This document shows, piece after piece, positions 2,384-32,983 of a stretch of 64,000 bases of DNA (positions within the stretch are counted from its first letter, which is position 1; every line of letters begins with the position of its first letter). The stretch lies in the NCBI RefSeq assembly GCF_013409365.1, contig NZ_JACCBA010000001.1, positions 9,176,001 to 9,240,000 on the forward strand, written 5' to 3'. Below the pieces are notes generated by a model that did not search any database, was not told the origin of the DNA, and saw nothing but the letters and a program-made list of their open reading frames with translations. The position numbers and the translations under genes were made by a program. Source of the stretch: Actinomadura luteofluorescens (GTDB lineage Bacteria; Actinomycetota; Actinomycetes; Streptosporangiales; Streptosporangiaceae).

Positions 2384-2408
2384 GGGGTCTCCCTTCCCAC
2401 CGCTAGGT

Positions 2409-2426
2409 GCTATATATAAATTAAGT
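2409..2426 (+). promoter_or_regulatory. AT-rich 18-bp dyad, class GCTATA (2,3-dehydratase promoter region)
   Basis: GCTATA-TATAAAT-TAAGT in an otherwise GC-rich divergent intergenic region, 60 nt before the dehydratase start and 26 nt before the methyltransferase start on the other strand. It shares GTGCTATAT and TTAAGT with the element at 26845. One of eleven sites fitting RCTwTA-N6-TATAGT. Confidence 0.5.
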
Positions 2427-13282: not shown

Positions 13283-14501
13283 GTTCCGGGGAGCCCGCGG
13301 CCGCCAGGTCGGCGCGGAGGTCGGACGGCAGCAGCGGCTCGTCGAGGAGCCTCTGGTACCGCTCGACGAGGGACGTCCGGCCGGCGCCGGCGTCGAGCCA
13401 CGCGCCCACCAGCCGCGGGCCCTCGATGTACGTCACCGAGTAGGCGCGCCAGAGCGGATCGGTGAGGAACCGCGTCATCCGCCGGGCGTGGTCCGGGGGC
13501 ACCAGGAGCCACCGTTCCAGGTAGTCGGTGACCTCGTCGGGGTCGGCTCCGCGGTCGTGGAGCATGACGGCCGCGTCCTGGCGGGCGGGCATCAGCAGCC
13601 GGATCAGCCGCAGGACCTCCTCCACCAGCTCGCCCTCGACCCGGACGCCCGCGCCGGCGAGGACGTCGGCGGTCCAGCGGCCCCAGCCCGGGCCCGGCAC
13701 CGCCGCGTCGGCCATCTCGGCGGTCCCCTCGGCCATGAGGCACTGCGGGGTGTTGACCAGCGAGATCAGGTGCTCGCCGTGCCCGGCGCCGTCGACGAGG
13801 CCGGCCTCCTTGCGGCAGTGCTCGGTGTGGTGCCCTGGGTAGGACTCGTGGATCGCCAGCAGCGGCAGCGCGGCGATGGTGCGGCCCGCCTCCGCGTTGA
13901 GCTCCACCCTCGAGCGGAACCCGCCGAGGTAGCGGTTGTAGGCGTTCCAGGGCTTGTCGCGCACCACCACGTACTCGACGCTCTCCTGCTCTGGCAGGCC
14001 GAACACCGTGCGGGTCATGGCGCGCAACTCGCCGGACACCGCCTCAACGGCCCGTGCCAGCCGGTCCGGGGGGACGGCGTTGCGCTCGTAGAACGCCGCG
14101 GTGCGGGCGCACAGGTCCCCGGGGCCCGGCAGCAGCGCGCCGATCGCCTCGTGGATCTCCGCGTAGCGGCCGGGGTCGCCGAGTTCGATGTCGACCTCGA
14201 AGTACGTCCGGACCTCGTCCCCGAACGGGATCTCCTCTCCGGCCATCCGGCGCGCCGCGCAGTTCAGCGCGGCGAGCTGCGCGGACAGGAACCGGCGCCG
14301 AGGCTCGGCCAGGCCGCTGTCCGGGAGCGCGGCGAGCAGCCGGGCGGACTGGGCGGCGAGCCCGGACGCGTCGGGCCTCGGCTCGGCGTCCACCCGGCGC
14401 GCCAGTTCCGGGTCGCCGTACCAGGAGTCGACGAACCCGTCCGCGAGCCGGCCGAACCGCAACCCGAGTTTCAGGTACTCGGTCACCACGTCGTCGAGCA
14501 T
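13263..14501 (-). CDS. DUF885-like zinc-dependent hydrolase
   Basis: 412 aa; ATG preceded by AGGGAG. It carries HESYPGHHTEH, a DUF885/M32-like HExxxGHH zinc motif, with AEGTAEM downstream as the probable third-ligand region. No signal peptide. DUF885 proteins are mostly uncharacterised putative metallopeptidases; members are longer (about 550 aa) than this one. It is third in a minus-strand operon after the class V aminotransferase and the SBP-like gene, 33 nt behind the latter, so it may act on the same small molecule or peptide. Confidence 0.7.
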   Translation of the reverse strand: MLDDVVTEYLKLGLRFGRLADGFVDSWYGDPELARRVDAEPRPDASGLAAQSARLLAALPDSGLAEPRRRFLSAQLAALNCAARRMAGEEIPFGDEVRTYFEVDIELGDPGRYAEIHEAIGALLPGPGDLCARTAAFYERNAVPPDRLARAVEAVSGELRAMTRTVFGLPEQESVEYVVVRDKPWNAYNRYLGGFRSRVELNAEAGRTIAALPLLAIHESYPGHHTEHCRKEAGLVDGAGHGEHLISLVNTPQCLMAEGTAEMADAAVPGPGWGRWTADVLAGAGVRVEGELVEEVLRLIRLLMPARQDAAVMLHDRGADPDEVTDYLERWLLVPPDHARRMTRFLTDPLWRAYSVTYIEGPRLVGAWLDAGAGRTSLVERYQRLLDEPLLPSDLRADLAAAGSPELRTGAR

Positions 14502-14534: not shown

Positions 14535-16295
14535 TCACCCCGCGGGATCGTCCGGCGGGTCGAGCCAGATGCCGGCGAGGTCGTAGGAATGGCCGAACGC
14601 GGGCATCGGGACGGCGCCCCGCACGCGCTGGCCGCGCAGGCGCGGGACGACCGGCCGCTGGAACAGGACGGGCACGACCGCGGCGTCCTCCAGCACCGTC
14701 CGTTCGGCCAGGTTCCAGGCCGCGGTCGACCGCGCGGGCTCCTCGATCGTGCCGAGCGCCCGCTCGATCAGGCGGTCGACCTCCGGACGGCGGTAGCGTC
14801 CGCGGTTCGCGGAGTTGCGGGAGTCGCCCGACTGGAACATCGGCTGGAGGAAGACCCGGCCGTTGGAGGGGTGCCAGTCCGGCGACCACGACGAGGCCGC
14901 GACGTCCCACTCGCCCGCCGCCGCGCGGCGCGGATCACCGAGTAGAGCGTCCCGGGCGTCGTGGTCCAGCGCCACCAGCCGCACGGTGACGCCGGCCTTC
15001 TCCAGGTCGGCCGCGTACGACCGCGCGACCGCGGTGTCCAGGGCGGTGTCCAGGTGGACCGCGGTGAGCGCGAGGCCGTTCTCATGACCCGCCTCCGCCA
15101 GCAGCGCCCGGCATTTCTGTGCGTCACCCCGGCTTCCCGGGGTCGCGTAGAGGTCGAGTTCCTGGTGCGCGTCGTTGCCCGGCGGCACGACGGAACCGGC
15201 GATCCGCACCAGCGCACCGCGGCCGGACCGGCGGTACAGGTCGGCGATCGCCGCCTTGTCGATCGCGTACGAGAGCGCGCGGCGCACCCTGGCGTCGGCC
15301 AGCGCGCCGCCCGCCCCGGGGCTCTGCACGTTGAAGACGAGGTACGGGTCGAGGGAGAGGCCGAGGCCGTCGCCCGGATCGGCCGGCTCGGCGTCGTGCG
15401 GCTCGGCGACCGGCCCGCCCCACGGCAGGTCGGCCGCGCCCGACGCGACCCGCTCGGCGACCTGTTCCGGCGCCGCGTCCTCGACCGTGATCTCGACGCC
15501 GTCCAGGTACCGGTGCCGGAGCGGATCGGTGTCCTGCCGCCAGACGGGGTTGGGTTCGAGGCGCAGCTCGCGGCCCGGCACGAGACGGACCGGCCGGTAC
15601 GGCCCGTTGCTCCGGAGGTTCCGGTGCAGTTCCGGGCTTCCGGGCAGGAACGCGTCGTACTCGGCCGGGGCGGGCGACGCGCACGGCAGGGCCATGATGG
15701 CGGCGAAGTCGATGGCCGGCCGCATGAGCTCGATGACCAGCGACTCGTCGTCCAGGACGAAGACGCCGGGGATGTCGTGGGAGTTCTGGAAGGCGGCCAG
15801 TTCCTCGGCGGTCGGGTCGTCGCGGCGGACCGCGGCGGCGTAGTCCTCGCAGTACTGCGCCATGCCCCTGATCGTGCTGGTGAAGTAGGGCAGGGCGGCG
15901 GGCCTCGTGAGCGGGTTGGCCAGCCGTTTGAGCCCGCGCACGACGTCGTGCGCCGTGACCTCCCGCGCGGGCGCGGTGTCCCAGAGGACGCCGCGGCGCA
16001 GGTGCACCACGTAGTTCGTGTGCCGCGCGCCCATCCCGGTGTTGTAGGTGGACGGGACGTCGGTCGCGAGATCGGGCGCCGGGGCGATCGCCCGCCAGTC
16101 GCGCAGGTCCGGCGCGGGGGCGTAGCCGAACAGCTGCCGGGCGAACAGCCTGATGATCTGGTCGGCGGGCGCCTGGTGGGAGGCCGAGGGGTCGAGGCGG
16201 TGCACGGGGGCCGGGCCGTGGAGGCGGAGCGTCCCGCCGAGCCGCGGCCGGTCCCCGCTCCACGGGGCGGTCTGGGGCCGCTCGGACACGGTCAT
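14535..16295 (-). CDS. Family 5 solute-binding-protein-like protein without signal peptide (copy 1)
   Basis: 586 aa, ATG overlapping the aminotransferase stop as ATGA. Oligopeptide-SBP features run the full length: YVVHLRRGVLWD, SNGPYRPVRL, VRRALSYAIDK and GDAQKCRALLAEAG. The N-terminus MTVSERPQTAPWSGDRPR has no hydrophobic core and no lipobox Cys, so it should stay in the cytosol, and no permease is linked. Copy 2 lies at 17977. Together they suggest cytosolic binding of the product or an intermediate (sequestration, chaperoning) or a co-opted enzyme fold. Function unproven. Confidence 0.8.
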   Translation of the reverse strand: MTVSERPQTAPWSGDRPRLGGTLRLHGPAPVHRLDPSASHQAPADQIIRLFARQLFGYAPAPDLRDWRAIAPAPDLATDVPSTYNTGMGARHTNYVVHLRRGVLWDTAPAREVTAHDVVRGLKRLANPLTRPAALPYFTSTIRGMAQYCEDYAAAVRRDDPTAEELAAFQNSHDIPGVFVLDDESLVIELMRPAIDFAAIMALPCASPAPAEYDAFLPGSPELHRNLRSNGPYRPVRLVPGRELRLEPNPVWRQDTDPLRHRYLDGVEITVEDAAPEQVAERVASGAADLPWGGPVAEPHDAEPADPGDGLGLSLDPYLVFNVQSPGAGGALADARVRRALSYAIDKAAIADLYRRSGRGALVRIAGSVVPPGNDAHQELDLYATPGSRGDAQKCRALLAEAGHENGLALTAVHLDTALDTAVARSYAADLEKAGVTVRLVALDHDARDALLGDPRRAAAGEWDVAASSWSPDWHPSNGRVFLQPMFQSGDSRNSANRGRYRRPEVDRLIERALGTIEEPARSTAAWNLAERTVLEDAAVVPVLFQRPVVPRLRGQRVRGAVPMPAFGHSYDLAGIWLDPPDDPAG

Positions 16296-17629
16296 GACAT
16301 CTCCTCGCCGATGCGGGCCATGATGCCGATCGCCCGGTCGATCTCCTCGCGGGTGTTGAACAGGTGGGTGCAGACCCGCGCCGCGTAGTGCTGGTGCGGC
16401 GAGCCCGGGACGTCGAACTCGGTCCACCGGATCCAGATGCGGTGCTCCCGCTCCAGCCGGTCGGTGAACGCGGTGAACTTCTTGATGTTCCAGGCGGCCT
16501 CGGGGTCGCGGAACGGGTTGAAGGCGATGAGGGGGGACTTCAGCAGCGGATCCTCGCCGGGCGAGAAGATCGACTCCTTGCCGAAGGCCTCCACCAGGCG
16601 CTGCCGGGCGTGGTCGCCGAGCTCCATCGCGCGCCTCTCGATGCGGTCCCGGCCGATCTCGTCCCAGATCTCGCAGGCCCGCGCCAGCGCGGCGCCCCTG
16701 GCGATGCTCGCGCTGCCGGCGCTCTGCACGTACAGGGCGGTGTCGTCGCTCTCGACCGACGTCCTCGTCCGCGGCGGGGGACTGCCGATCATCGGGTACC
16801 AGGTGGAGATCACCGGCCAGAACGTCGGCAGCGGCAGCGGGTTGTACTCGGGGAAGACCTTGTTGCGCAGGTAGAGGATGCCGGTTCCCAGCGGGCCGCA
16901 CTGGAACTTCGAGCCCGAGCAGGCGATGAAGTCGGCGCCGAGCGCCCGCATGTCCAGGTTCACGAGGCCGGGCAGCAGCGCGCCGTCGATCACGGTGGTC
17001 AGGCCGTGCCGCTGCGCCAGCTCGCACAGCCTGCGCATCGGCATCATCGTGCCGGTGAACAGGGTGATCCCGGCGAACGCGAGCACCTTGGTGCGGGGGG
17101 TGATGGCCGCCTCGAACTGCTCGACGATCTCGTCGGCCGTGACGTCGTAGCCGGTCGGCATGGTCAGCGTCTTGATCGTCAGGCCGTACCGGTTCCGGAC
17201 GAGGTTGAAGTTGGAGAGCACCGAGTAGCACTCGTGGCTCGTGGTGACCACCTCGTCGCCCTCGTGGAGGTCGAGCCCCTGGATGATGCGGGCGACGCCC
17301 TCGGTGGCGTTGTGGCAGATCACGATCTCGTCCTGGTCGACGCCGAACGCCCTGCCGATGAGGGCGCGGTGCTCGTAGTAGCCGGACGGCTTGTAGACGT
17401 CGGCCAGCCCGCCCGTCCACTCGCGGGTCACCCGGTCCATCGTGTCGAGCACGTCGTAGGGCATCGCGCCGACGGTGCCGGTGTTGAGGTGGGTCGTGGT
17501 CGGATCCAGGGCGAACAATTCGCGGATGCTTTCCCACGGCGCGTCGCGGAGCCGCCGCGGCGATCCGCCGTTCGCCGTCCCGGCCGGGTCCGGGACGCTG
17601 CGCTCGCCGGGCTTCACGGACTGTGTCAC
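16292..17629 (-). CDS. Class V PLP-dependent aminotransferase-fold enzyme
   Basis: 445 aa from GTG 17629, which has GGAGGGGG 6 nt upstream. PLP features: GTVGAMPYDVLD, HNATEGVARI, VIDGALLPG, and CSGSKFQCGPLGTG with Lys241 as the likely Schiff-base residue. It resembles isopenicillin-N-epimerase/EgtE-type members; these include C-S lyases, epimerases and kynureninase-like enzymes. In a sulfur-rich cluster a C-S bond reaction is attractive but not shown. It leads the operon aminotransferase, SBP-like, DUF885. Confidence 0.8.
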   Translation of the reverse strand: MTQSVKPGERSVPDPAGTANGGSPRRLRDAPWESIRELFALDPTTTHLNTGTVGAMPYDVLDTMDRVTREWTGGLADVYKPSGYYEHRALIGRAFGVDQDEIVICHNATEGVARIIQGLDLHEGDEVVTTSHECYSVLSNFNLVRNRYGLTIKTLTMPTGYDVTADEIVEQFEAAITPRTKVLAFAGITLFTGTMMPMRRLCELAQRHGLTTVIDGALLPGLVNLDMRALGADFIACSGSKFQCGPLGTGILYLRNKVFPEYNPLPLPTFWPVISTWYPMIGSPPPRTRTSVESDDTALYVQSAGSASIARGAALARACEIWDEIGRDRIERRAMELGDHARQRLVEAFGKESIFSPGEDPLLKSPLIAFNPFRDPEAAWNIKKFTAFTDRLEREHRIWIRWTEFDVPGSPHQHYAARVCTHLFNTREEIDRAIGIMARIGEEMS

Positions 17630-17976: not shown

Positions 17977-19671
17977 GTGGAGCCTCGTTACGGCGGTACC
18001 CTCCGCTACTTCGGGCCTGGCGGAATGGACCATGTCGATCCTGCGTGCGCCTATTACGCCTTTTCGCACCAGATCATCAGGCTGTTCGCGCGGCAGTTGT
18101 TCGGCTACCCGACGGCCGTGGACGAGACGGCCCTGACCCCGGTCCCGGACGTCGCCGCGGAGTCGCCGACGGTCGCCAACGGCGGGATGAGCCCGGACGG
18201 GCTCGTGTACCGGATCCGCCTGCGCCAGGGCGTCATGTGGGACACCGACCCGCCGCGCGAGGTCACCGCGGAGGACTTCGTCCGCGGCTTCAAGCGGATG
18301 TGCAACCCGGTGGCCGGCGCCGGGGCGATCGCCTACTACACGAGCACGATCAGGGGGATGGCCGAGTTCGCCGACGGCTACCGGCGGGAGTTCGCGGGAC
18401 GGACCCCCTCGGCCGCCGACCTGGCCGGCTACCAGAACGCGCACGAGATCTCCGGGCTGCGGGCCGACGGCGACCGCACCCTGGTCGTCGAGCTGGTGCG
18501 GCCCGCCAACGACCTGCTGAACCTCCTGTCGATGATGTTCGCGTCCGCGGCGCCGCGCGAGTACGACCGGTTCGTCCCGGACAGTGCCGAGTTCATCGCG
18601 AACGTTCGCTCCAACGGCCCGTACCGCCTCACCGGCTACGAGAACGGCCGGTTCCTGACGATGGAGCGGAACCCGGTGTGGCGGCAGGACACCGATCCGC
18701 TGCGGCACCAGTACGTCGACGGCCTCGACGTGCGGATGGCGCGCGTCGACGACGACCGGGTGCGGGAGGCGATCCGGAGCGGGGAGGCCGACCTGTCGTG
18801 GGGCGCGCCGGTCATCAGCGAGGACCGCCGCCCCCCGGACGCGGACCGGCATCTCGGGTACGCGATGAACCCCTACCTCGTGTTCAACATGAAGAGCCCG
18901 AACGAGGGCGGGGCGCTGCGCGACGTCAGGGTGCGCAGGGCCGTCGCGTACGCCGTCGACAAGGCCTCCATGGTCAGGCTGCTCGACGACATGGATCTGG
19001 GGACGGTGACCCGGACGGCGCACACGGCGATCCCGCCGGGCAACTTCGGGCACCGCGAGTACGACCGCTACCCGACGCCGGGGGACCACGGCGATCCGGC
19101 GAAGGCGCGGGCGCTGCTCGCCGAGGCCGGGTACCCCGACGGCCTCACCCTCAAGGCGCTCTACCGCGCCGACGCCCCGCACGCCGACATCGCGCGGTAC
19201 TACGCCGCCGACCTGGAGAAGGCGGGGTTCACGGTCGAACTGCGGTTGATCAGCCAGCCCGACGAGTACTACCGGTTCCTGCAGAACCCGGCCATGGCCG
19301 AGGCGGGCGAATGGGACGTCACGGCGGCGGCGTGGACGCCCGACTGGTTCGGCAACAACGGCCGCGCCTACGTCCAGCCGATGTTCCAGTCCAACTTCGC
19401 CGCCGGCACCAGCAACTACGGCGGGTACCGCAACCCCGAGGTCGACCGGCTCATCGAGGAGGCCCTGTCCGAGCGGGATCCGGTGCGCGCGGAGGAGTTG
19501 TGGCACCGGATCGACCGGCAGGTCATCGAGGACGTCGCGATCGTGCCCGTCCTGGCCTGCGAGCCGACCATCCCCCACATGACCAGCGCCCGCGTGCGCA
19601 ACGGCCTGCCGCTGCCGCAGGTGGACCGCTGGCTCGACGCGGCCTGCATCTGGCTCGACCCGCCCGGCTGA
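17977..19671 (+). CDS. Family 5 solute-binding-protein-like protein without signal peptide (copy 2)
   Basis: 564 aa from GTG 17977, with AGGGAAGG 8 nt upstream; GTG 17968 lies within that ribosome site. It is collinear with copy 1: both share IIRLFARQLFGY, STIRGMA, SNGPYR, NPVWRQDTDPLRH, and YAADLEKAG. The N-terminus MEPRYGGTLRYFGPGG begins directly at the SBP fold with no signal sequence or lipobox. Loss of the export signal in both paralogues implies selection for an intracellular role. It is a single-gene unit diverging from the aminotransferase operon. Confidence 0.82.
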   Translation: MEPRYGGTLRYFGPGGMDHVDPACAYYAFSHQIIRLFARQLFGYPTAVDETALTPVPDVAAESPTVANGGMSPDGLVYRIRLRQGVMWDTDPPREVTAEDFVRGFKRMCNPVAGAGAIAYYTSTIRGMAEFADGYRREFAGRTPSAADLAGYQNAHEISGLRADGDRTLVVELVRPANDLLNLLSMMFASAAPREYDRFVPDSAEFIANVRSNGPYRLTGYENGRFLTMERNPVWRQDTDPLRHQYVDGLDVRMARVDDDRVREAIRSGEADLSWGAPVISEDRRPPDADRHLGYAMNPYLVFNMKSPNEGGALRDVRVRRAVAYAVDKASMVRLLDDMDLGTVTRTAHTAIPPGNFGHREYDRYPTPGDHGDPAKARALLAEAGYPDGLTLKALYRADAPHADIARYYAADLEKAGFTVELRLISQPDEYYRFLQNPAMAEAGEWDVTAAAWTPDWFGNNGRAYVQPMFQSNFAAGTSNYGGYRNPEVDRLIEEALSERDPVRAEELWHRIDRQVIEDVAIVPVLACEPTIPHMTSARVRNGLPLPQVDRWLDAACIWLDPPG

Positions 19672-24069: not shown

Positions 24070-24345
24070 CTAGCCTCCTGCCAGCGGCGCGATGATCTCG
24101 ACGCGGCTGCCGGGGGCGAGCTCGACGTCGTCCGCGGGCGTCGTGCGGGGCACCTGCTCGCCGTCGACGAGGAACAGGTGGTAGGGCAGCAGCTCGCCGG
24201 CCGGGGAGTAGAGCCGGTAGCCGGCCTCCGGGTGGGAGCGCACGAACGTGTCCAGGAGCTCGCGCAGGTTGGCCGCGGGCAGCTCCGAGCGCACCTTGCC
24301 GGAGGTCACGTTGTGCCAGCTGCCGGGGACGATGAGATGGGGCAT
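24070..24345 (-). CDS. MoaD/ThiS-like sulfur carrier protein
   Basis: 91 aa ending in IIAPLAGG: the C-terminal Gly-Gly is the feature that lets ubiquitin-fold carriers be adenylated and thiocarboxylated. It also has FLVDGEQV and LAPGSRVEI, typical of the MoaD fold. It lies 9 nt after the SUMF1-fold gene in a two-gene operon. With the cysteine desulfurase at 27688 as sulfur source it could deliver sulfur to a thiosugar or polysulfide. No E1-like activating enzyme is in the window; a housekeeping MoeB/MoeZ may serve. Confidence 0.85.
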   Translation of the reverse strand: MPHLIVPGSWHNVTSGKVRSELPAANLRELLDTFVRSHPEAGYRLYSPAGELLPYHLFLVDGEQVPRTTPADDVELAPGSRVEIIAPLAGG

Positions 24346-24354
24346 GGGGCATCC

Positions 24355-25263
24355 TCACGGGTCGCGGACGCATCGGAAACCACTGGCGAAGCAGGCCCAT
24401 CCGGTCGGGTCGCCGTGCAGGCGCTCGCTGGTCCGGGCCTGGAAGCGCAGGTTCATCCAGGAGCCGCCGCGGATGACGCGGAAGCGGTCCATCACGCTCA
24501 GCAGCGACTCGTCGCAGTCGGGCGACGGGCCGTAGAGCCGGCTCGGCGAGGCCGTCCACTCGTAGACGTTGCCCGCCATGTCCGCCACCCCGTACGGGCT
24601 GTCGCCGTGCGGGCTGAAACCGCCGACCGGCGTGGTCAGCGGGATCGGGCCCCCGTCGCTCTGGAGCGCCTTCCACCACGCGCGCCACTCGGCGGCGCTG
24701 CGGGTGGCGTCGCCCAGCCGCAGCTCGGTGGTGTTGGTCCGCTCGCGGGACCATTCGTCGCCCCAGGGCCACAGCCGGTACTCGGGGCCGCGGGCCGCCA
24801 GCTCCCACTCCGCCTCCGTCGGCAGCCGCCCGCCCGCCCACGCGGCGAAGGCCTCGGCGTCCTCGACCGCGATGTGGACGGCGGGGTGGTCGTCCGGCGG
24901 GACGTAGCCGGCGTCCCGCCCCGCCGGACGGCGCCAGGACGCGCCGGGAGCCCCCTGCCAGTAGTCGGCCCCGTAGACCAGGCTCCAGCCGCGGCGCTCG
25001 GCGACCGTCCGGTACCCGGTGGCCTCCACGAACGCCGCGTACCTGCCGGAGGTGACCGGGTAGCGGTCGATCAGGAACGGCGCGACCTCCACGAGCGTCT
25101 GCGGGGTCTCGTCGCGGAACCACGGGGTGGGGAAGGGCTGGTCCTGCTCCGCCAGCCAGTCGATCACCCATTCCGGCGAGCCGAGCCGGAAGGCCGCTCC
25201 TTCGACGAGGACCGGTTCCGCGGCCTCCGCGTCGCCGCGCATCGCCGTCTCGTGGTCTGCCAC
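24355..25263 (-). CDS. SUMF1/FGE-fold protein lacking the canonical Cys pair
   Basis: 302 aa. FGE-sulfatase fold motifs run along it: FLIDRYPVTSGRYAAFVE, GGRLPTEAEWELAARG, WPWGDEW, MAGNVYEWTAS, and RGGSWMN followed by SGFRC. In formylglycine-generating enzymes two Cys lie just after GGSxx; here that stretch reads MNLRFQARTSE, without Cys. The only nearby Cys are residues 291 and 298. So it is not a standard FGE. Relatives include EgtB, OvoA and FGE, enzymes of oxygen-dependent sulfur chemistry. The operon with a sulfur carrier supports a sulfur-linked role. No DinB domain as in EgtB. Confidence 0.82.
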   Translation of the reverse strand: MADHETAMRGDAEAAEPVLVEGAAFRLGSPEWVIDWLAEQDQPFPTPWFRDETPQTLVEVAPFLIDRYPVTSGRYAAFVEATGYRTVAERRGWSLVYGADYWQGAPGASWRRPAGRDAGYVPPDDHPAVHIAVEDAEAFAAWAGGRLPTEAEWELAARGPEYRLWPWGDEWSRERTNTTELRLGDATRSAAEWRAWWKALQSDGGPIPLTTPVGGFSPHGDSPYGVADMAGNVYEWTASPSRLYGPSPDCDESLLSVMDRFRVIRGGSWMNLRFQARTSERLHGDPTGWACFASGFRCVRDP

Positions 25264-25301
25264 AGCGCCGTCCCGTAGACGAGGGTTCTCAACGAGCAGA
25301 A

Positions 25302-25319
25302 ACTATATAAATATATAGC
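25302..25319 (-). promoter_or_regulatory. AT-rich 18-bp dyad (SUMF1/carrier operon promoter)
   Basis: On the minus strand GCTATA-TATTTAT-ATAGT, the nearest to a perfect palindrome of the set (GCTATA/TATAGT arms), 39 nt before the SUMF1 start and preceded by GGT as at 2406. Confidence 0.6.
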
Positions 25320-25341
25320 ACCTGTGCCGGGCGTGCCACGC

Positions 25342-26694
25342 TCACCGCCCGATCCCGCGGTAGCCGAACCCGAGGCCGCGCAGCCGCCGGATCGTCTCCG
25401 GCCGGTAGTGCATGCGCCCGTCGAAGATCAGGCACGGCATCGCGACCCGCCGCCGCAGCCGCTCCAGGTCGAGGTCGCGGAACTGCCGGTGCCCGGCGAG
25501 GAGGGCGACGGCGTCGGCGCCCCGCACCGCCTGGTCGAGGTCGTCGACGGGGAAGCCGCCCACCTGCGACCGGATGAGCTCCTTCTCGGCGAGGGGGTCG
25601 AAGATCCGGACCTCCGCGCCCGCCGCCAGCAGGGCTCGGACCACCCCCGTGACGGGGGTGTTGCGCAGGTCGCCGGTGTCGTTCTTGAAGGCCGCGCCGA
25701 GAACGGCGATCCGCGCCGAGGCCAGGTCCTTGCCCATCTTCGCGAGGCCGTCCCTGAGGACCTCGTAGGCGTACTCGGGCATGGCGTCGTTGACGCGCCG
25801 CGCCGTCTCCACCGTCCGCAGCCGGACGCCGCGGTCGCGGGCGGTGCGCCAGGTCATCCACGGGTCCTTGGTCAGGCACGGTCCGCCGACGCCCGCGCCG
25901 GGCCGCAGGATGTTCACCCGCCCGTCCCCCTTGGGCAGCGAGTTCGCCGCGGCGATCACCTCCATCACGTCGACCTCGAACAGCGCGCAGAACCGGGCCA
26001 GCTCGTTGGCCATCGCGACGTTCGCGTCGATCCACCAGTTGTTGGCCAGCTTCACGATCTCGGCGATGTCGGCCGTGGGCACGATCCGGACGGGCACGTC
26101 CAGCGCCGCCTTCCAGAACCGGGCCGCCGCCGCCGTGCTGCCGGGGCCGCACCCGCCGACGACGACGGTGAGCTCGCGCAGCTGGGCCAGCGCGTCCCCC
26201 TCGGCCAGCCGCTCCGGGCAGTAGGCGAGGCCGAAGTCCCGGCCCTCCACCAGGCCGCCGCTCTCCAGCAGGGGGACGACCAGCGTGCGCGTGGTCCCCG
26301 GGGCGACGGTGCTCTTGAGGATGACCAGCTGGCCGGGCCGCAGCCGGGGTGCGAGCTGGCGGCACACCTCTTCGAGCTGGGCGGTCAGCAGGGCGCCGTT
26401 CCCGTCGACGGGCGTGCCGACCGTGATGAGCACGACGTCGGCGTCCTCCAGGGCGTCGTAGTCGGTGGTGCACGCCAGCCGCCCGCTCGCGACGAGCGGG
26501 GCCAGTGCCTCGGCCAGCCCGGGCTCGGGGACCGCGCGGCGGCCGGCCCGCAGCCCGGCGATCATCGATGCGTCGCTGTCGATGCCGACGACGCTCATGC
26601 CGCGCTCCGCCAGCGCCGCCCCGAGGCACGAGCCGATGTAGCCGAACCCCAGGATCGCGATCCGCGGGCTGGGAGAGTCTGACAGGAATTCCAT
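25342..26694 (-). CDS. UDP-glucose/nucleotide-sugar 6-dehydrogenase
   Basis: 450 aa, ATG with GGAGG 5 nt upstream. N-terminal Rossmann IAILGFGYIGSCLG, LKSTVAPGTT, YCPERLAEG, central NNWWIDANVAMANE, catalytic-Cys motif GGPCLTKDPW, and C-terminal VLGAAFKNDTGDLRNTP. These define the UDP-glucose/UDP-ManNAc dehydrogenase superfamily. CalS8 of calicheamicin is such an enzyme. Paired with the SDR at 7280 it would supply UDP-glucuronate and then a UDP-pentose. It is its own transcription unit diverging from the sulfur operon. Confidence 0.9.
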   Translation of the reverse strand: MEFLSDSPSPRIAILGFGYIGSCLGAALAERGMSVVGIDSDASMIAGLRAGRRAVPEPGLAEALAPLVASGRLACTTDYDALEDADVVLITVGTPVDGNGALLTAQLEEVCRQLAPRLRPGQLVILKSTVAPGTTRTLVVPLLESGGLVEGRDFGLAYCPERLAEGDALAQLRELTVVVGGCGPGSTAAAARFWKAALDVPVRIVPTADIAEIVKLANNWWIDANVAMANELARFCALFEVDVMEVIAAANSLPKGDGRVNILRPGAGVGGPCLTKDPWMTWRTARDRGVRLRTVETARRVNDAMPEYAYEVLRDGLAKMGKDLASARIAVLGAAFKNDTGDLRNTPVTGVVRALLAAGAEVRIFDPLAEKELIRSQVGGFPVDDLDQAVRGADAVALLAGHRQFRDLDLERLRRRVAMPCLIFDGRMHYRPETIRRLRGLGFGYRGIGR

Positions 26695-26723
26695 GGTCGC
26701 CTCCGACGCCGCCGGACATAGTT

Positions 26724-26741
26724 ACAATATATTACTAAAGT
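26724..26741 (-). promoter_or_regulatory. AT-rich 18-bp dyad (nucleotide-sugar dehydrogenase promoter)
   Basis: On the minus strand ACTTTA-GTAATAT-ATTGT, 30 nt before the ATG at 26694. Confidence 0.5.
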
Positions 26742-26844
26742 GATGTTGTCCCGGGCTGGCCTGCGAGACCCTCGCTTGGCACCGGGAATGCTGCTCGTGC
26801 GCGGGGAGCTTCCGGGCGGCGTCCTTGGAGTCGCCCGATCAAGT

Positions 26845-26862
26845 GCTATATGATAGTTAAGT
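26845..26862 (+). promoter_or_regulatory. AT-rich 18-bp dyad (sulfur operon promoter)
   Basis: GCTATA-TGATAGT-TAAGT, 36 nt before the first gene of the six-gene plus-strand operon. Very close to the element at 2409 (both contain GTGCTATAT and TTAAGT at the same distance). Confidence 0.55.
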
Positions 26863-26897
26863 GAGTGACCTCGCGCTCGTGACCTCCGGAACGGGAG

Positions 26898-27695
26898 ATG
26901 GTGACCGAGGAACGCCCTGCCGGCGTCGATCTGTCCTCGCTGGCGCAGCGCCATGTCGACCAGTGGGCCCCCGCGGGCGGACGCGGCCCCGCGATCGCCC
27001 GCCTGGCCCGGACCGCCGTACGGCTGGACGAGGGCTACTGCCGGGCCGTGGCGGCGTACTACGACCGCGCGCCCCTGCGCGCCGACGACGCGGGTCTGCG
27101 CCGGCGCTACGCGCGGTTGAGGCGGCAGAACCTCCGGCAGTTCCGGTCGATCGTCGAGGCCGGCATCGAGATCGCGCCGTGGCTCGGGGAGGGGCAGCCG
27201 TACAAGGGGTCGCGGGACCTGCGCGAGAGCGTGCACCGGACCGGGAGGCTCCACGTCTACCTGACCAGCTCGGGCCACGGGCCGTCGCCGGCCGCCGGGG
27301 ACCATCCGCTGTCGGGGCCTTCGGGCGTCGTGGTCGACGGCGTGGAGTTCTGCCACAACGACCTCTTCCGGGCCGTGCACGACATCTTCGGGCACGTGAT
27401 GCTCGGCCACGGGTTCGGGCCCAAGGGGGAGTTCCTCGCGGCCTTCTGCCACATGCACACGTACTCGCGCGACGTGCGTCCCATCCTGTTCACCGAGCAG
27501 ATCGGCCAGATCTGCTGGTTCTTCTACGGCCCGCACCTGCTGGACGGCGCGGGCGCGCTGCCGGGGCCCGGCGACCCCGGTCATCTGCCGCCGTCCCGCC
27601 GCCCGTACCCGGAGCAGAAGGTCTTCGCGTTCCCGGCGCGGTTCCTCGACGCGTTCACGAGCCTGTTCCAGCCCGAGAGGAGTCCGGATGACTGA
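26898..27695 (+). CDS. HDxFGH-motif protein, putative metal-dependent oxygenase of unknown function
   Basis: 265 aa; GGGAG overlaps the region just before ATG 26898 (GTG 26901 is an alternative). The conserved-looking core is FCHNDLFRAVHDIFGH (His161, Asp162, His166) followed by GPKGEFLAAF (Glu178), HMHTYS and LFTEQIGQICWFFYGPH. The HxxxxH plus Glu arrangement recalls the Fe ligands of aromatic amino acid hydroxylases (motif PDxxHExxGH), but overall similarity is low and I do not recognise the family by name. It overlaps the cysteine desulfurase by 8 nt and leads the sulfur operon, so its substrate may be an amino acid or the product core. Confidence 0.55.
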   Translation: MVTEERPAGVDLSSLAQRHVDQWAPAGGRGPAIARLARTAVRLDEGYCRAVAAYYDRAPLRADDAGLRRRYARLRRQNLRQFRSIVEAGIEIAPWLGEGQPYKGSRDLRESVHRTGRLHVYLTSSGHGPSPAAGDHPLSGPSGVVVDGVEFCHNDLFRAVHDIFGHVMLGHGFGPKGEFLAAFCHMHTYSRDVRPILFTEQIGQICWFFYGPHLLDGAGALPGPGDPGHLPPSRRPYPEQKVFAFPARFLDAFTSLFQPERSPDD

Positions 27696-28995
27696 CGTGA
27701 TGCCGCAGGGAGGGGGATCTCCGGTACGGCTCGCGGACCAGGCGTTCCTTCCCAGATCCATCAGGGACGACTTCCCGATCCTGGCGGGCGGGCGGGGCGG
27801 CGATCCGCTCGTCTACCTCGACAACGCCGCGACGGCGCAGAAGCCGCGCGCGGTCCTCGACGCACTCGTCGACTACTACTCGACGGCGAACAGCAACGTG
27901 GGCCGCGGCCACTACCGGCTGAGCATGGCCTCCACCGACCTCTACGAGGAGGCGCGCGAGACCGTCCGGCAGGCGCTCGGCGCCGAGCACGCCGACGAGA
28001 TCGTGTTCACCCGGGGCACCACGGACGCGGTGAACCTGATCGCGGACGGCTTCGGCGCCCGGCTGGTCGGCGAGGGGGACCAGGTCGTCGTCACCGGGAT
28101 GGAGCACAACTCCAACCTGCTGCCGTGGCGGCGGCTCTGCGAGCGGGCGGGGGCGGAGCTGGTGGTCGCCCCCGTCGACGAGCGGGGCGCCGTCGACGTC
28201 GCGGCCTTCGCCGCCGTGCTCGGCCCCCGCGTCCGGATCGCAGCCGTCGCCCACGTGTCCAACGTGCTGGGGACCGTCAACCCGGTCCGCGCGATGATCG
28301 CCGAGGCGCACCGGCGCGGTGTCCCGGTCGTCGTGGACGGCGCCCAGGCGGTGCCGCACGCGCCGGTGGACGTGCGCGGGCTCGACGCCGACTTCTACTG
28401 CTTCTCGGGGCACAAGGCCTACGGCCCGATGGGCACCGGGGCCCTGTACGGCAAGCGGGACCTGCTCGCGGAGCTGCCGCCGTACCAGGTCGGCGGGGGG
28501 ACGGTGAAGGGCGTGAGCCACACCGAGCCGGTCCGCTACGTTCCCGTGCCCGCCCGGTTCGAGGCGGGCACCCCGAACGTCGCGGGAGCCGTCGCCCTGG
28601 CCGCCGCGCTGCGCTACGTCCGCGATCTCGGCTGGGACGCCGTGCGGCGGCACGACGAGGCGCTGGTGCGGTACGCGGTCGAATCGCTGGGGCGGATCGG
28701 CGGCGTGCGGGTGGTCGGCGACCCTGCCGCCGCGCCCAGCGGGATCGTGTCCTTCGTCGTCGACGGCATCCATCCCTACGACGTCGGCGGGCATCTGGAC
28801 CGCCACGGCGTGGCCGTGCGCAGCGGCGTGCACTGCGCCAGCACCTTCCTGGACGACATGGGCCTGCTCGGAACCGTGCGGATGTCGTTCGCCGTCTACA
28901 ACACCGCCGAGGAGATCGACGTCGTGGCCGGCGCCCTGCGCTCGGTGCGACCCGGCTCGTGGACCGCCGACCACCCGACCACGCGGTTCCTCTGA
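27688..28995 (+). CDS. SufS-type (group II) cysteine desulfurase
   Basis: 435 aa. YLDNAATAQKP, TRGTTDAVNLIA, MEHNSNLLPW, HVSNVLGT, FSGHKAYGPMGTG with PLP Lys243, and the catalytic-Cys loop RSGVHCAST with Cys383 are all present. It turns Cys into Ala plus enzyme persulfide. There is no SufU, SufBCD or IscU next to it, which argues against Fe-S assembly. With the carrier at 24070 and the gamma-lyase-family enzyme that follows after 1 nt it looks dedicated to secondary metabolism. Confidence 0.92.
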   Translation: MTDVMPQGGGSPVRLADQAFLPRSIRDDFPILAGGRGGDPLVYLDNAATAQKPRAVLDALVDYYSTANSNVGRGHYRLSMASTDLYEEARETVRQALGAEHADEIVFTRGTTDAVNLIADGFGARLVGEGDQVVVTGMEHNSNLLPWRRLCERAGAELVVAPVDERGAVDVAAFAAVLGPRVRIAAVAHVSNVLGTVNPVRAMIAEAHRRGVPVVVDGAQAVPHAPVDVRGLDADFYCFSGHKAYGPMGTGALYGKRDLLAELPPYQVGGGTVKGVSHTEPVRYVPVPARFEAGTPNVAGAVALAAALRYVRDLGWDAVRRHDEALVRYAVESLGRIGGVRVVGDPAAAPSGIVSFVVDGIHPYDVGGHLDRHGVAVRSGVHCASTFLDDMGLLGTVRMSFAVYNTAEEIDVVAGALRSVRPGSWTADHPTTRFL

Positions 28996-28996
28996 C

Positions 28997-30115
28997 ATGC
29001 GCTTCGACACGAGGCTGGTCCACCTCGGCCAGGAAGCCGACGGCGCCACCGGGGACGTCGTGCCGCCCGTCCACGTCGCCGCGACGTTCGAGCGGCGGGT
29101 CCAGGATCCGCTGCGCTACTTCTACTCGCGCGGCGAGAACCCGACGCGCGAGGCCCTCGAACGATGCCTGGCCGGGCTGGAGGACGCCCGCTTCGCCCTC
29201 GCCTTCGCCTCCGGGCAGGCGGCGGGGACGACGGCGCTCTCCCTGCTGCGCCCCGGCCGCAGGCTGATCGCCTCGGACGACGTGTACGGCGGCACCCGTT
29301 CGCTGTTCGCGCTGCTCGGCCGGTACGGCATCACCGTGGACCACGTCGACCTCACCGACGCGGGCGCGCTCGACGCGGCGCTCGGCGACGACGTGGACAT
29401 GATCTGGGTGGAGGCGCCGACCAACCCGCTGCTCAAGGTCGCCGACCTCTCGGTGGTGTGCGAGCGGGCCCGGCGGGCGGGCGCCCGCGTGGTGGTGGAC
29501 AATACCCTCGCCGGCCCGGCCCTGCAGCGGCCGCTGCGGTTCGGCGCCGACATCACCCTGTACAGCACCACCAAGTCGATCGCCGGCCACTCCGACGTCA
29601 TCGGCGGCGCCCTGGTCTACGACGACGAGGAACTGCACCGCGAGCTGGCGTCCCACCGCACCACCACGGGCGGCGTGCCCGGCGGCATCGACTGCTTCCT
29701 GGTGCACCGCGGGCTCAAGACGCTCTCGCTGCGCGTGGCCCGGCAGGTGGGCAACGCGGAGGCGATCGCCACCGCGCTGCGCGGGAGCGAGCGGGTGGGC
29801 GCCGTCCACTATCCGGGGCTGCCCGAGCATCCGCAGCACGAGGTGGCGGCCCGGCAGATGTCGGCGCCGGGGTCGATCCTGAGTTTCGAGTACCTGGGCG
29901 ATCCGGAGAAGCTCCTGGACCGGGTGCGGCTGTACGCGTGCGCGGTCAGCCTCGGCGGCGTGCGCTCGCTCATCGAGTGCCCCGCCATGATGACCCACGC
30001 CTCCGTGCCCCGCGAGGTCCGGGGGGCGCTGGGCATCTCCGACGACCTCATCCGGGTGTCGGCGGGCATCGAGGACCCCGCCGACCTGGTGCGGGACCTG
30101 ATGGACGCGCTCTGA
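28997..30115 (+). CDS. Cystathionine/methionine gamma-lyase-family PLP enzyme
   Basis: 372 aa, starting 1 nt after the desulfurase stop. Cys/Met-metabolism PLP motifs: YFYSRGENPTREALE, FASGQAAGT, DDVYGGT with PLP-stacking Tyr97, VDNTLAGP, and LYSTTKSIAGHSDVIGG with Lys193. Calicheamicin CalE6 is a methionine gamma-lyase of this family. The residue after YG, a Cys in Pseudomonas methionine gamma-lyase, is Gly here, so cystathionine gamma-lyase or synthase activity is equally possible. With the next gene it could form a methanethiol or homocysteine loop. Confidence 0.88.
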   Translation: MRFDTRLVHLGQEADGATGDVVPPVHVAATFERRVQDPLRYFYSRGENPTREALERCLAGLEDARFALAFASGQAAGTTALSLLRPGRRLIASDDVYGGTRSLFALLGRYGITVDHVDLTDAGALDAALGDDVDMIWVEAPTNPLLKVADLSVVCERARRAGARVVVDNTLAGPALQRPLRFGADITLYSTTKSIAGHSDVIGGALVYDDEELHRELASHRTTTGGVPGGIDCFLVHRGLKTLSLRVARQVGNAEAIATALRGSERVGAVHYPGLPEHPQHEVAARQMSAPGSILSFEYLGDPEKLLDRVRLYACAVSLGGVRSLIECPAMMTHASVPREVRGALGISDDLIRVSAGIEDPADLVRDLMDAL

Positions 30116-30133
30116 ACTGCGGAGGGATGACAC

Positions 30134-31078
30134 ATGAACGACCTATCCGGGGGCCGCCGGTCCGGAAGCGGCGGACCCCTGTGGCTGGACGGCGGGACCG
30201 CGACCGAACTGCAGCGCGCCGGCATGAGCGTCGACGGGCCGTGGTGGACCAACCGGGCCATGAACTCCGAGGCCGCCCGCACGCGGTTGCGCGGGATCCA
30301 CCAGGGCTACCTGGACGCCGGAGCGCAGGTGATCACCGCGAACACCTTCCGGTCCAACCTGCGGGCGCTCAGCCGCCTCGGCCTCTTCGACGCCGGCCTG
30401 GCGTGGATGGTGCACGCCGCCGTCGGCGTCGCCGAGTCGGCGGTGCGGGCCTGCCAGGACGGGCGGGCGCCGGACGCCGGCCGCCCGCGGATCGCGGGCT
30501 CGGTGGGGCCCGTCGAGGACTGCTACCGGCCCGACCTCGTCCCTCCCGACGACGAGCTGCGGGCCGAGCACCGCTGGCTGGCGACGGAACTGATGCGGGT
30601 GGGCGTGGACCTCGTCCTGGTCGAGACGATGAACTCCGAGCGGGAGGCGCGCATCGCGCTGGAGGAGGTGCGGCGGGCGGGCGCGCGGGCCTGGGTCGGC
30701 TTCGTGTGCGACGCCGACGCCCGGCTGCTGTCGGGGGAGAAGCTGACCGAGGCGGCCGCCGCCGTCGAACGCGACGGCGCCGAGGCCGTCCTCGTCAACT
30801 GCACCGGCCCGGCCGACAGCGAGACGGCGCTGCGGGCGCTGCGGGACGCCTGCTCGGGCCCGATCGGCGCCTACCCCAACATCGAGGACCGCGACGGCAT
30901 CCCCCGTTCGGCGCACGTCGACCGGCACGTGCCCGCCGCGCTGGGGCCCGACGAGTTCGCCGACCTGATCGCCCGCTGGGACGCGGAGTTCTCCCTCGAC
31001 GTGGCCGGCGGCTGCTGCGGCACCACGCCGGCCCATCTGGCCGCGGCCCGCGACCGGCTGCCGCGGAGCGGGCGATGA
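30134..31078 (+). CDS. Homocysteine S-methyltransferase family protein
   Basis: 314 aa, ATG after GGAGG. N-terminal LWLDGGTATELQRAG, ANTFRSN, GSVGPVEDCY, and the three Zn-binding Cys in VNCTGP and GGCCGTTP mark the MmuM/BHMT group. These move a methyl group from S-methylmethionine, SAM or betaine to homocysteine. In operon with the gamma-lyase-family enzyme it could regenerate methionine for methanethiol release, or methylate another thiol such as a 4-thiosugar. The latter is speculative. Confidence 0.88.
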   Translation: MNDLSGGRRSGSGGPLWLDGGTATELQRAGMSVDGPWWTNRAMNSEAARTRLRGIHQGYLDAGAQVITANTFRSNLRALSRLGLFDAGLAWMVHAAVGVAESAVRACQDGRAPDAGRPRIAGSVGPVEDCYRPDLVPPDDELRAEHRWLATELMRVGVDLVLVETMNSEREARIALEEVRRAGARAWVGFVCDADARLLSGEKLTEAAAAVERDGAEAVLVNCTGPADSETALRALRDACSGPIGAYPNIEDRDGIPRSAHVDRHVPAALGPDEFADLIARWDAEFSLDVAGGCCGTTPAHLAAARDRLPRSGR

Positions 31079-31115: not shown

Positions 31116-32114
31116 ATGAGGATCCTCGTGACCGGCGGCGCCGGGTTCGTCGGGTCCCACTACGTGCGCCGGCTCCTCGGCCCGGAGCGCGCCGGAGGCG
31201 GCGCGCACCAGGTCACGGTGCTGGACAAGCTCACCTACGCCGGCAACCCGGCCAACCTCGACCCCGTGCGCCGCGCGCCGGGCTTCGCCTTCGTCCACGG
31301 CGACGTCGCCGATCCCGCGGTGGTCGACGAGCTCGTCGCCGCTCACGACGCGATCGTCCACTTCGCCGCGGAGTCCCACGTCGACCGGTCGATCCGGTGC
31401 GCCCAGGACTTCGTGGTCACCAACGTCCTCGGCACGCAGACGCTGCTGGAGGCGGCGCGGCGCCACGGCACGGCCCCGTTCGTGCACGTGTCGACCGACG
31501 AGGTGTACGGGCCGATCGGGACGGGGCGGTGGAGCGAGCGGGCTCCGCTGGCGCCCGGCAACCCGTACGCGGCGTCCAAGGCCGCGGCCGACCTCGTCGT
31601 GCTCGCCTGCCACCGGACGTTCGGGATGGACGTCCGGATCACCCGGGGCTCCAACACCTACGGCCCGTACCAGTTCCCCGAGAAGATCGTCCCGCTGTTC
31701 GTCACCGAGCTGCTCGACGGGGGGAAGGCGCCGCTGTACGGCGACGGGCTCCACGTCCGCGAGTGGCTCCACGTCGACGACCACTGCCGCGCCGTGCACC
31801 TGGCGCTGACGAGGGGGCGGGCGGGCGAGGTCTACAACGTCGGCGGGGTGCCGCTGACCAACCGCGAGCTGACCGGCCGGCTGCTCGCCCAGTGCGGCGC
31901 GGGCTGGGAGGCGGTGTCGTACGTGGAGGACCGCAGGGGGCACGACCGCCGGTACGCGATGGACTGCACGAAGATCGCGTCGGAGCTCGGGTTCCGGCCC
32001 CGCCGGGACCTCGCGGCCGGCCTCGCGGAGACCGTCGCCTGGTACCGGGACAACCGCGAGTGGTGGGAGCCGCTCACGATGCACGTGCCGCGGGACGTGG
32101 AGGTGAACTCGTGA
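31116..32114 (+). CDS. rmlB: dTDP-glucose 4,6-dehydratase
   Basis: 332 aa. ILVTGGAGFVGSHYV, FAAESHVDRSI, VSTDEVYG (the Thr-Asp-Glu dehydration triad), YAASKAAADL with Tyr/Lys, RGSNTYGPYQFPEKIVPL and GDGLHVREWLHVDDH are textbook RmlB features. It makes dTDP-4-keto-6-deoxyglucose, the common precursor for the 2,3-dehydratase and the DegT aminotransferase. No rmlA is seen in the window. The stop overlaps the next start as GTGA. Confidence 0.96.
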   Translation: MRILVTGGAGFVGSHYVRRLLGPERAGGGAHQVTVLDKLTYAGNPANLDPVRRAPGFAFVHGDVADPAVVDELVAAHDAIVHFAAESHVDRSIRCAQDFVVTNVLGTQTLLEAARRHGTAPFVHVSTDEVYGPIGTGRWSERAPLAPGNPYAASKAAADLVVLACHRTFGMDVRITRGSNTYGPYQFPEKIVPLFVTELLDGGKAPLYGDGLHVREWLHVDDHCRAVHLALTRGRAGEVYNVGGVPLTNRELTGRLLAQCGAGWEAVSYVEDRRGHDRRYAMDCTKIASELGFRPRRDLAAGLAETVAWYRDNREWWEPLTMHVPRDVEVNS

Positions 32115-32983
32115 CGGCCGCGAACATCGACCCGGCCGCCGTCAAGCAGGGGCAGCGGGCCTCCTGGGACGCCCTCAGCGCGAACTGGGAGGCGGTGGGG
32201 GAGCGGTTCGAGCTGGGCGCGGCCGCGGTGACGGAGCGGCTGCTCGACGCCGGCGGCGTGCGGGCGGGCCACGCGGTCCTGGACGTCGGGACCGGGCACG
32301 GGGAGCCCGCCCTGACGGCGGCCCGGCGGGTGGGGCCCGCCGGGCGGGTGACCGGAGTGGACATCTCCCCGGCGATGCTCGACCTGGCCAGGCGCCGGGC
32401 CGAGGGCACGCCCAACATCGGGTTCGCCGAGGCGGACGTGGAGTCCATCGACCTGCCGGCGGCCTCGTTCGACGTCGTGCTCAGCCGCTGGGGGCTGATG
32501 TTCGCGGTGGACCACGTCGCCGCGTTCCGCGGCCTCGCCCGCCTCCTGGTCCCGGGGGGCGTGCTCGCCGCGGCGGTCTGGGGCGAGGCGCCCGGCGCGC
32601 CGACGATCTCGCTGGGCTTCCGGGTGCTGAGCGAGCGGCTCGAACTGCCGCCCCCGCCGCCGGGCACGCCGGGCCCGTTCAGCATGGCCGACCCGGAGCC
32701 GCTCGCCGCCGAGCTGGCCGCGGCGGGGTTCACCGACGTGTCGGTGACGGAGTTCGTCGTGCGGTTCCCGTTCGACTCCGTCGAGCAGTGCGTGGCGTTC
32801 ACCAGGGCGGTGACGCCGCCGATGCTGCTGCGGAAGGTCGCCGAGCGCTTCGGGTCCGCGGACGACCCCGGCACGTGGCAGGCCTTCGCCGACGCCACCG
32901 AGCCCTACCGTTCCGGCGACGGGGCCTTCACGCTGCCGTCGACGGCGCTGATCGTCCGGGCCGCCGTCCCCGCCCGTGAGTAG
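32111..32983 (+). CDS. Class I SAM-dependent methyltransferase (UbiE/Coq5-like)
   Basis: 290 aa from a GTG that overlaps the rmlB stop by 4 nt. Motif I VLDVGTGHGEPALTAA, VTGVDISPAML, and motif III GLARLLVPGGVLAAAVWG are clear. The family includes C-, O- and N-methyltransferases and the acceptor cannot be read from sequence. As last gene of the six-gene operon it is coupled to sugar and sulfur genes, so thiol or sugar methylation is possible. It ends 24 bp from the convergent secreted-protein gene. Confidence 0.85.
   Translation: MTAANIDPAAVKQGQRASWDALSANWEAVGERFELGAAAVTERLLDAGGVRAGHAVLDVGTGHGEPALTAARRVGPAGRVTGVDISPAMLDLARRRAEGTPNIGFAEADVESIDLPAASFDVVLSRWGLMFAVDHVAAFRGLARLLVPGGVLAAAVWGEAPGAPTISLGFRVLSERLELPPPPPGTPGPFSMADPEPLAAELAAAGFTDVSVTEFVVRFPFDSVEQCVAFTRAVTPPMLLRKVAERFGSADDPGTWQAFADATEPYRSGDGAFTLPSTALIVRAAVPARE

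Follow-up and report, generated by a model that had tools for sequence, protein, structure and literature searches.

Two sulfur modules probably lie side by side in an esperamicin-type enediyne cluster of Actinomadura luteofluorescens, in a stretch of 64,000 nucleotides (NCBI RefSeq assembly GCF_013409365.1, contig NZ_JACCBA010000001.1, C1:9176001-9240000), here called the window. Module 1, made up of genes 26-29 and 31 together with gene 17, would be a cassette for the CH3-S-S-S trigger of the aglycone, and module 2, genes 23 and 24, would supply another sulfur, drawn from a protein thiocarboxylate. The gene content and synteny of both modules, their link to enediyne genes and their separability are direct observations from the comparison of genomes. 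Positions of the features are collected in Table 1; labels beginning with G or L are our own handles for other genomes and loci.

The window is part of a single-contig genome of 9.62 Mb. Upstream of it and outside it, at C1:9155470-9165259, are the genes for an enediyne polyketide synthase (PKS, 1875 aa) and a thioesterase, a DUF1702-type gene (a label taken from a homologue), and two genes of the E4 and E5 types. The PKS itself lies 11-17 kb upstream of the window, and the group formed with its E4, E5 and thioesterase neighbours covers C1:9156206-9165259. The PKS matches EspE and proteins named "enediyne polyketide synthase", with 88% identity to EspE of A. verrucosospora and 97% to a protein of Actinomadura luteofluorescens, and homologues of the E5 gene bear the annotation "enediyne biosynthesis protein". 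Inside the window, which has many sugar genes including a member of the UDP-glucose dehydrogenase family, gene 21 best matches the glycosyltransferase EspG2 (786 bits over 394 residues; CalG2 follows with 447 bits), and gene 22 matches the aminopentose protein CalS13. Because of these likenesses to EspE, EspG2 and CalS13, the cluster is assigned by homology to the esperamicin (10-membered) type. As compared here, its resemblance to the esperamicin cluster of Actinomadura verrucosospora concerns the EspG2-like glycosyltransferase and the EspE-like PKS.

The core of module 1 is a run of genes on one strand. Gene 27 scores 488 bits against the SufS subfamily TIGR01979 (cut-off 475) and has the cysteine in RSGVHCAS and the lysine in SGHK, as expected of a SufS-type cysteine desulfurase. 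As the original prediction had noted, this SufS stands without iron-sulfur partners: Pfam scans of 19 distinct proteins of the window (58 called) revealed none of the SufBCDE/U kind, and its neighbours are gene 26 and the lyase gene 28. The closest solved relatives of gene 28 are CalE6 entries (493 and 490 bits; the next has 327), which places it in the CalE6 group of pyridoxal phosphate (PLP) lyases, and CalE6 has methionine gamma-lyase activity according to the excerpts of PMC4851618. Gene 29 belongs to the homocysteine S-methyltransferase family (185.6 bits against PF02574, gathering score 22) and stays under the cut-off of the NCBIfam equivalog NF007020 (134 against 215 bits). For the methyltransferase gene 31, the best NCBIfam relatives are of the ArsM type, under the cut-off. 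By synteny, gene 26 is the predicted partner of the SufS.

Gene 17, which lies apart from this run, was considered as a further cysteine desulfurase and rejected, as the catalytic cysteine of the SufS loop is absent from the alignment and the protein reaches 98 bits against the SufS cut-off of 475; its PvdN score (94 bits) is also far under the cut-off. Its classification therefore goes no further than class-V PLP protein. We infer that it is C-S-lyase-like, and it is presumed, from the description of CalS4, to be the counterpart of that calicheamicin protein. Genes 17 and 24 are also distantly related to PvdN and PvdO of pyoverdine maturation. PvdN and PvdO are likewise a pair of a PLP protein and a protein with the fold of formylglycine-generating enzyme (FGE), and the likeness, seen in sequence, may be coincidence or may reflect a shared logic.

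Homologues of gene 26 turned up in 2 of the 394 genomes searched at class level, in 14 of the 327 at family level, in 12 of 250 in a sample of Micromonosporaceae and in 5 of 48 PKS-bearing genomes, the last two counts including one weak match each. With the two weak matches left out and repeat genomes removed, 26 loci remained, the present one included, and the presence of the cassette genes was judged by score thresholds over stretches that ranged from 8 to 160 kb. SufS and CalE6 homologues accompany gene 26 in 25 of the 26 loci, and homologues of genes 29, 31 and 17 do so in 22, 20 and 12, respectively; in G941, gene 17 is also present when a longer stretch is taken, and among the loci spanning at least about 100 kb it occurs in 10 of 11. 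Gene 26 and SufS share their strand in 25/25 loci; in 22 of these their spacing, as projected from the ends of the alignments, is between -66 and +48 bp, and in the remaining three they are 1.3-4.4 kb apart. This recurrence, in an enediyne setting, agrees with the original proposal that the lyase and methyltransferase provide the CH3-S part of the product.

The cassette is linked to enediyne genes. E5 is present in 92 of the 250 Micromonosporaceae genomes, and all 11 genomes with a strong gene 26 match are E5-positive (Fisher p = 1e-5, uncorrected for relatedness); the sole weak match of this sample, G750, is E5-negative. Gene 26 and E5 lie on one contig in 9 of the 11 genomes, 8-57 kb apart, and the 10 other loci spanning at least about 100 kb all contain PKS and E5, after extension of G835 and G782. 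A strong gene 26 is absent from 81 of the 92 E5 genomes, and the cassette therefore marks a subset of them, as would be expected for the kind of enediyne with a sulfur trigger.

Two loci bear on where this sulfur goes. In G763, gene 26, SufS, the gene 31 methyltransferase, CalE6, gene 17, DUF1702, E4, E5, PKS and thioesterase follow one another on one strand with short gaps. Its 100 kb contain no homologue of the window's UDP-glucose dehydrogenase, CalS13-like, 2,3-dehydratase or glycosyltransferase genes, and no glycosyltransferase was found among ten region proteins scanned with Pfam (the gene 31 and DUF1702 homologues among them). In G602, where the order is 26-27-31-28-29-17 and the PKS is 18 kb off, homologues of the same four kinds of sugar gene are likewise lacking from 100 kb. 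Since most of the cassette in the sugar-poor G763 continues directly into the enediyne PKS genes, module 1 probably makes the methyl trisulfide of the aglycone. Or the cassette could serve a 4-methylthio sugar, with gene 17 as the sugar thiolation enzyme. The S in the name CalS4 stands for sugar, and the window abounds in sugar genes. Furthermore, calS4 is listed, in the excerpts of PMC4851618, among genes that possibly act on the trisulfide or on the thiosugar. This alternative is nevertheless distinctly unlikely in view of G763 and G602, where the cassette, gene 17 included, is part of the PKS run or close to it and homologues of those four kinds of sugar gene are lacking from 100 kb, apart from one weak (26%) epimerase-type match 43 kb away in G602.

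Module 2 pairs a small carrier with a protein of the FGE-fold family. The carrier, gene 23, scores 29.6 bits against PF02597 (ThiS family, cut-off 22.5) and has a terminal Gly-Gly. Directly upstream, gene 24 falls in the CalU17 group, its family profile giving 483 bits with CalU17 and 156 with the next solved relative. FGE itself has a copper-binding cysteine pair; in the GGSWM...GFRC region of the gene 24 alignment, which has no true FGE row, no conserved cysteine pair was seen, and no FGE activity is ascribed to gene 24 here. CalU17-like genes occur in 12 of the 250 Micromonosporaceae genomes, all 12 of them E5-positive, and share a contig with E5 in 10, at 4.7-37 kb. A carrier of 80-88 aa with a Gly-Gly end lies beside the CalU17-like gene in all 12 loci, and the two are fused in 3 proteins among 120 relatives listed. 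In G880, G871 and G961, a SufS-type desulfurase, the CalU17-like gene, the carrier and a quinone reductase form one run; such runs of desulfurase, CalU17-like gene and carrier support a sulfur role of module 2. The genome has five ThiS-family matches and one ThiF-family gene, read as 393 aa, with a rhodanese-like tail by eye. This sole, MoeZ-like gene is a candidate for the E1-type activating enzyme of the carrier and lies elsewhere in the genome, so the carrier, if used, needs loading in trans. An RmlA-like gene is found two genes downstream of the carrier in four module 2 loci, and in G941 a homologue of the 2,3-dehydratase immediately follows the carrier.

The original prediction joined the carrier, SufS, lyase and homocysteine methyltransferase in one supply set in which SufS loads the carrier. 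The places and families that it gave for these four held up, and a general logic of desulfurase and carrier is plausible. In a fully pooled system, SufS (gene 27) would load the carrier (gene 23), which would be the sulfur donor for every C-S bond, the trigger's included, and the lyase and methyltransferase would supply CH3-S. The three runs with SufS, CalU17-like gene and carrier fit such a system, as does the presence of both modules in one window with a common 9-mer. The same runs can be read the other way, as module 2 having its own desulfurase. Moreover, the carrier/CalU17-like pair was detected in 13 of the 26 gene 26 genomes and not in the other 13 (the search for the CalU17-like gene took in the whole genome in 7 of these, and the search covered 100 kb in 2 and at most 20 kb in 4), and gene 26 is present in only 4 of the 12 Micromonosporaceae genomes with module 2, being missing from 8. 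Because about half of the SufS loci come without a detected carrier module, loading of this carrier by this SufS has no specific support, and a pooled system appears unlikely. Genes 24, 26, 31 and 17, which the original prediction had left out, belong to the same systems.

Another possibility is that module 2 brings no sulfur to the product, the Gly-Gly protein acting as a scaffold or modifier while the CalU17-like protein catalyzes another reaction, for example in self-protection. In the name CalU17, the U means unknown, and the module is found in several types of enediyne cluster, including one on a Streptomyces plasmid in which neither gene 26 nor CalE6 was detected (SufS was not searched there). 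With a desulfurase adjacent in three clusters, and with a free Gly-Gly end on the carrier copies seen, we give this possibility a low probability.

Several observations weigh against the division into a trigger cassette and a thiocarboxylate module, or against the roles given to their genes. Gene 28 is far under the NCBIfam cut-off for methionine gamma-lyase, TIGR01328 (326 against 549.7 bits), and is therefore filed as CalE6-like only. The gene 17 homologue of G602 (L107:14476-15675) has an arginine where the PLP-binding lysine is expected, and gene 17 was not found within 100 kb in G955. Gene 29 was missing from 4 of the 26 loci, of which three had at most 20 kb and the other was G763 with 100 kb; gene 31 was missing from 6, of which five had at most 20 kb and the other was G955 with 100 kb. 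One gene 26 locus, L138, is without SufS and CalE6 within 20 kb. As for module 2, its correlation with the 2,3-dehydratase is weak (5/5 against 2/6, p = 0.06), and the thiosugar assignment is soft for this reason. The plasmid cluster mentioned above (L202; NZ_CP107920.1, Streptomyces sp. NBC_00441) looks 9-membered and carries the CalU17-like gene and the carrier, and no carrier match was found on the plasmid of a more distant relative (47%, Streptomyces MBT27). The two-module reading is kept as the best explanation, with the carrier as a separate enediyne module and the 4-thiosugar as a first guess at its target.

In the L202 cluster, the gene order is condensation protein, CalU17-like protein, carrier and flavin adenine dinucleotide monooxygenase, and epoxide hydrolase genes are present too. 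In the plasmid collection, 49 records match E5.

Gene 26 represents a protein family to which none of the libraries searched assigns a function: no Pfam family fits it, and the PDB gave no usable match. In an alignment of 57 rows, H161, D162, H166, E178, E200 and Q204 are invariant, the first five of which suggest a metal or acid-base site. Its AlphaFold model is confident (pLDDT 93, pTM 0.90). Both sequence and fold assign gene 26 to a phage/plasmid family like phrog_3170, which is matched at 4e-7 by gene 26 and at 7e-18 by its relative P0220; the two sides have in common the fold and the pattern ND..FRAVHD...H...FGP.GE...E...Q.CW..GPH...RPY..QK. A Microbacterium plasmid protein is 35% identical to gene 26 over 185 residues, and 20 viral models match it at E <= 0.001; the names of two of these models refer to polyvalent-protein domains. 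Some phage proteins of the phrog_3170 kind are themselves named polyvalent, names that may concern other domains of theirs. The gene 26 product differs in being a stand-alone protein in enediyne clusters, whereas the phrog_3170 kind is a stretch of mostly larger phage proteins. Among the phage collection, 197 records match gene 26 (187 from Mycobacterium phages); none of the 197 covers more than 80% of the query, and those listed cover 22%. Many relatives of gene 26 are named "crotonobetainyl-CoA--carnitine CoA-transferase", a name that Pfam does not back and that is probably a propagated misannotation.

A 2-His-1-Glu motif is typical of aromatic amino acid hydroxylases, and the H-D-x-x-G-H of gene 26, followed by a conserved glutamate, resembles it. 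An oxygenase of this type could form C-S or S-S bonds oxidatively. This is very improbable, since an hhalign comparison of the gene 26 profile with eight bacterial members of PF00351 gave a probability of 0.6% (E 0.09), and since the sequence and fold match phage/plasmid proteins instead.

For the two modules, the following steps may be proposed. Gene 17, as a C-S-lyase-type PLP enzyme, would free or install the first carbon-bound sulfur. SufS would draw sulfane sulfur from cysteine, the CalE6-type lyase would release methanethiol from methionine, and gene 29 would convert homocysteine back to methionine. Gene 31 would methylate a thiolate or persulfide where needed, and gene 26, as the SufS partner, would hand on or join the sulfurs. 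In module 2, the sole ThiF-family (MoeZ-like) protein of the genome would load the carrier in trans, and the carrier thiocarboxylate would give a separate sulfur, possibly for a 4-thiosugar. A more far-reaching idea is that the trigger of 10-membered enediynes arises from a transferable cassette, with gene 26, the near-constant companion of SufS, recruited from a phage/plasmid domain as a sulfur-handling and perhaps metal-binding enzyme, and that next to it a novel type of carrier-dependent sulfur transfer operates, in which a CalU17-type FGE-fold protein acts on a dedicated thiocarboxylate. This is advanced only tentatively.

Calicheamicin-type enediynes serve as payloads of antibody-drug conjugates. 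For calicheamicin, the excerpts of PMC4851618 (2016) name calE4, calS4 and calE6 as candidate sulfur genes, and describe sulfur installation, including formation of the trisulfide trigger and the thiosugar in this enediyne type, as unknown. Single parts of the present system resemble known calicheamicin genes: gene 28 best matches CalE6 and the gene 24 profile CalU17, and genes 27 and 17 fit calE4 and calS4 by their descriptions in those excerpts. Here, comparative genomics divides this set, setting a trigger cassette apart from a carrier module; the same excerpts make no mention of gene 26, gene 31 or the carrier for calicheamicin. The split gives a short, testable gene list that parts trigger genes from carrier genes, and the G763 type offers a minimal, sugar-poor cluster for testing the cassette. 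BE-7585A is reportedly made with small carriers that end in Gly-Gly, the gene of their activating protein lying at another place in the genome. The same features are described for thioplatensimycin in the excerpts of PMC6006322, and BE-7585A is mentioned in those of PMC4851618. In contrast to both, the carrier here is dedicated, lies inside the cluster and is paired with an FGE-fold-family protein. A comparable hydropersulfide route, that of guangnanmycin and leinamycin (SH domains, GnmP), combines persulfide chemistry with S-methylation leading to methyl di- and trisulfides, as the excerpts of PMC8479088 describe. The module division, the relatives of gene 26 and the pairing of carrier and CalU17 were not found in the open-access literature searched.

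The original prediction also placed the same promoter dyad at the head of all these operons, which was borne out in part. The exact 9-mer ATATAGCAC (one strand) stands in the same orientation relative to the gene in three spacers, before gene 4, the 24-23 pair and the 26-31 run, with 0.013 occurrences expected in the window for a 9-mer that was picked after viewing these spacers. No inverted repeat of at least 7 bases was found in 26690-26900. A 10-mer version, with at most 2 mismatches allowed, occurs 5 times against 3.1 expected, which does not exceed chance, and the 9-mer was found neither in the orthologous loci L103-L105 nor in 56 kb upstream.

Table 1. Positions in the window of the module genes, one neighbouring gene and the shared 9-mer.
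Feature	Position	Strand	Description
Gene 26	26898-27695	+	First gene of the + run; 265 aa; 8-bp overlap with the SufS start; family related to phage/plasmid proteins
Gene 27	27688-28995	+	SufS-type cysteine desulfurase, 435 aa, with catalytic Cys and PLP Lys
Gene 28	28997-30115	+	CalE6-type Cys/Met-metabolism PLP lyase
Gene 29	30134-31078	+	Homocysteine S-methyltransferase family
Gene 30	31116-32114	+	dTDP-glucose 4,6-dehydratase, over TIGR01181 cut-off; sugar gene in the run, outside the sulfur core
Gene 31	32111-32983	+	S-adenosylmethionine methyltransferase conserved with the cassette
Gene 17	16292-17617	-	Class-V PLP protein; PLP Lys present, SufS cysteine absent
Gene 23	24070-24345	-	ThiS/MoaD-type carrier, 91 aa, C-terminus ...PLAGG
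Gene 24	24355-25263	-	FGE-fold family, CalU17-like; directly upstream of the carrier
Shared 9-mer	25313-25321	+	Upstream of the gene 24-23 pair
Shared 9-mer	26843-26851	-	Upstream of the gene 26-31 run
Shared 9-mer	2407-2415	-	Upstream of gene 4 (NDP-hexose 2,3-dehydratase)

Some further genes recur in these clusters. Two related substrate-binding-like proteins (14535-16295 and 18025-19671) lie on either side of gene 17 and have homologues in relatives; the second is OppA-type on scanning, below the cut-offs. Many of the enediyne clusters compared also encode homologues, about 56-68% identical, of a 412-aa protein without Pfam match (13263-14501). The adjacent genes u44 and u45 (C1:9170179-9173090), upstream of the window, are TldD/PmbA-like by eye, and their homologues lie near the cassette in many relatives.

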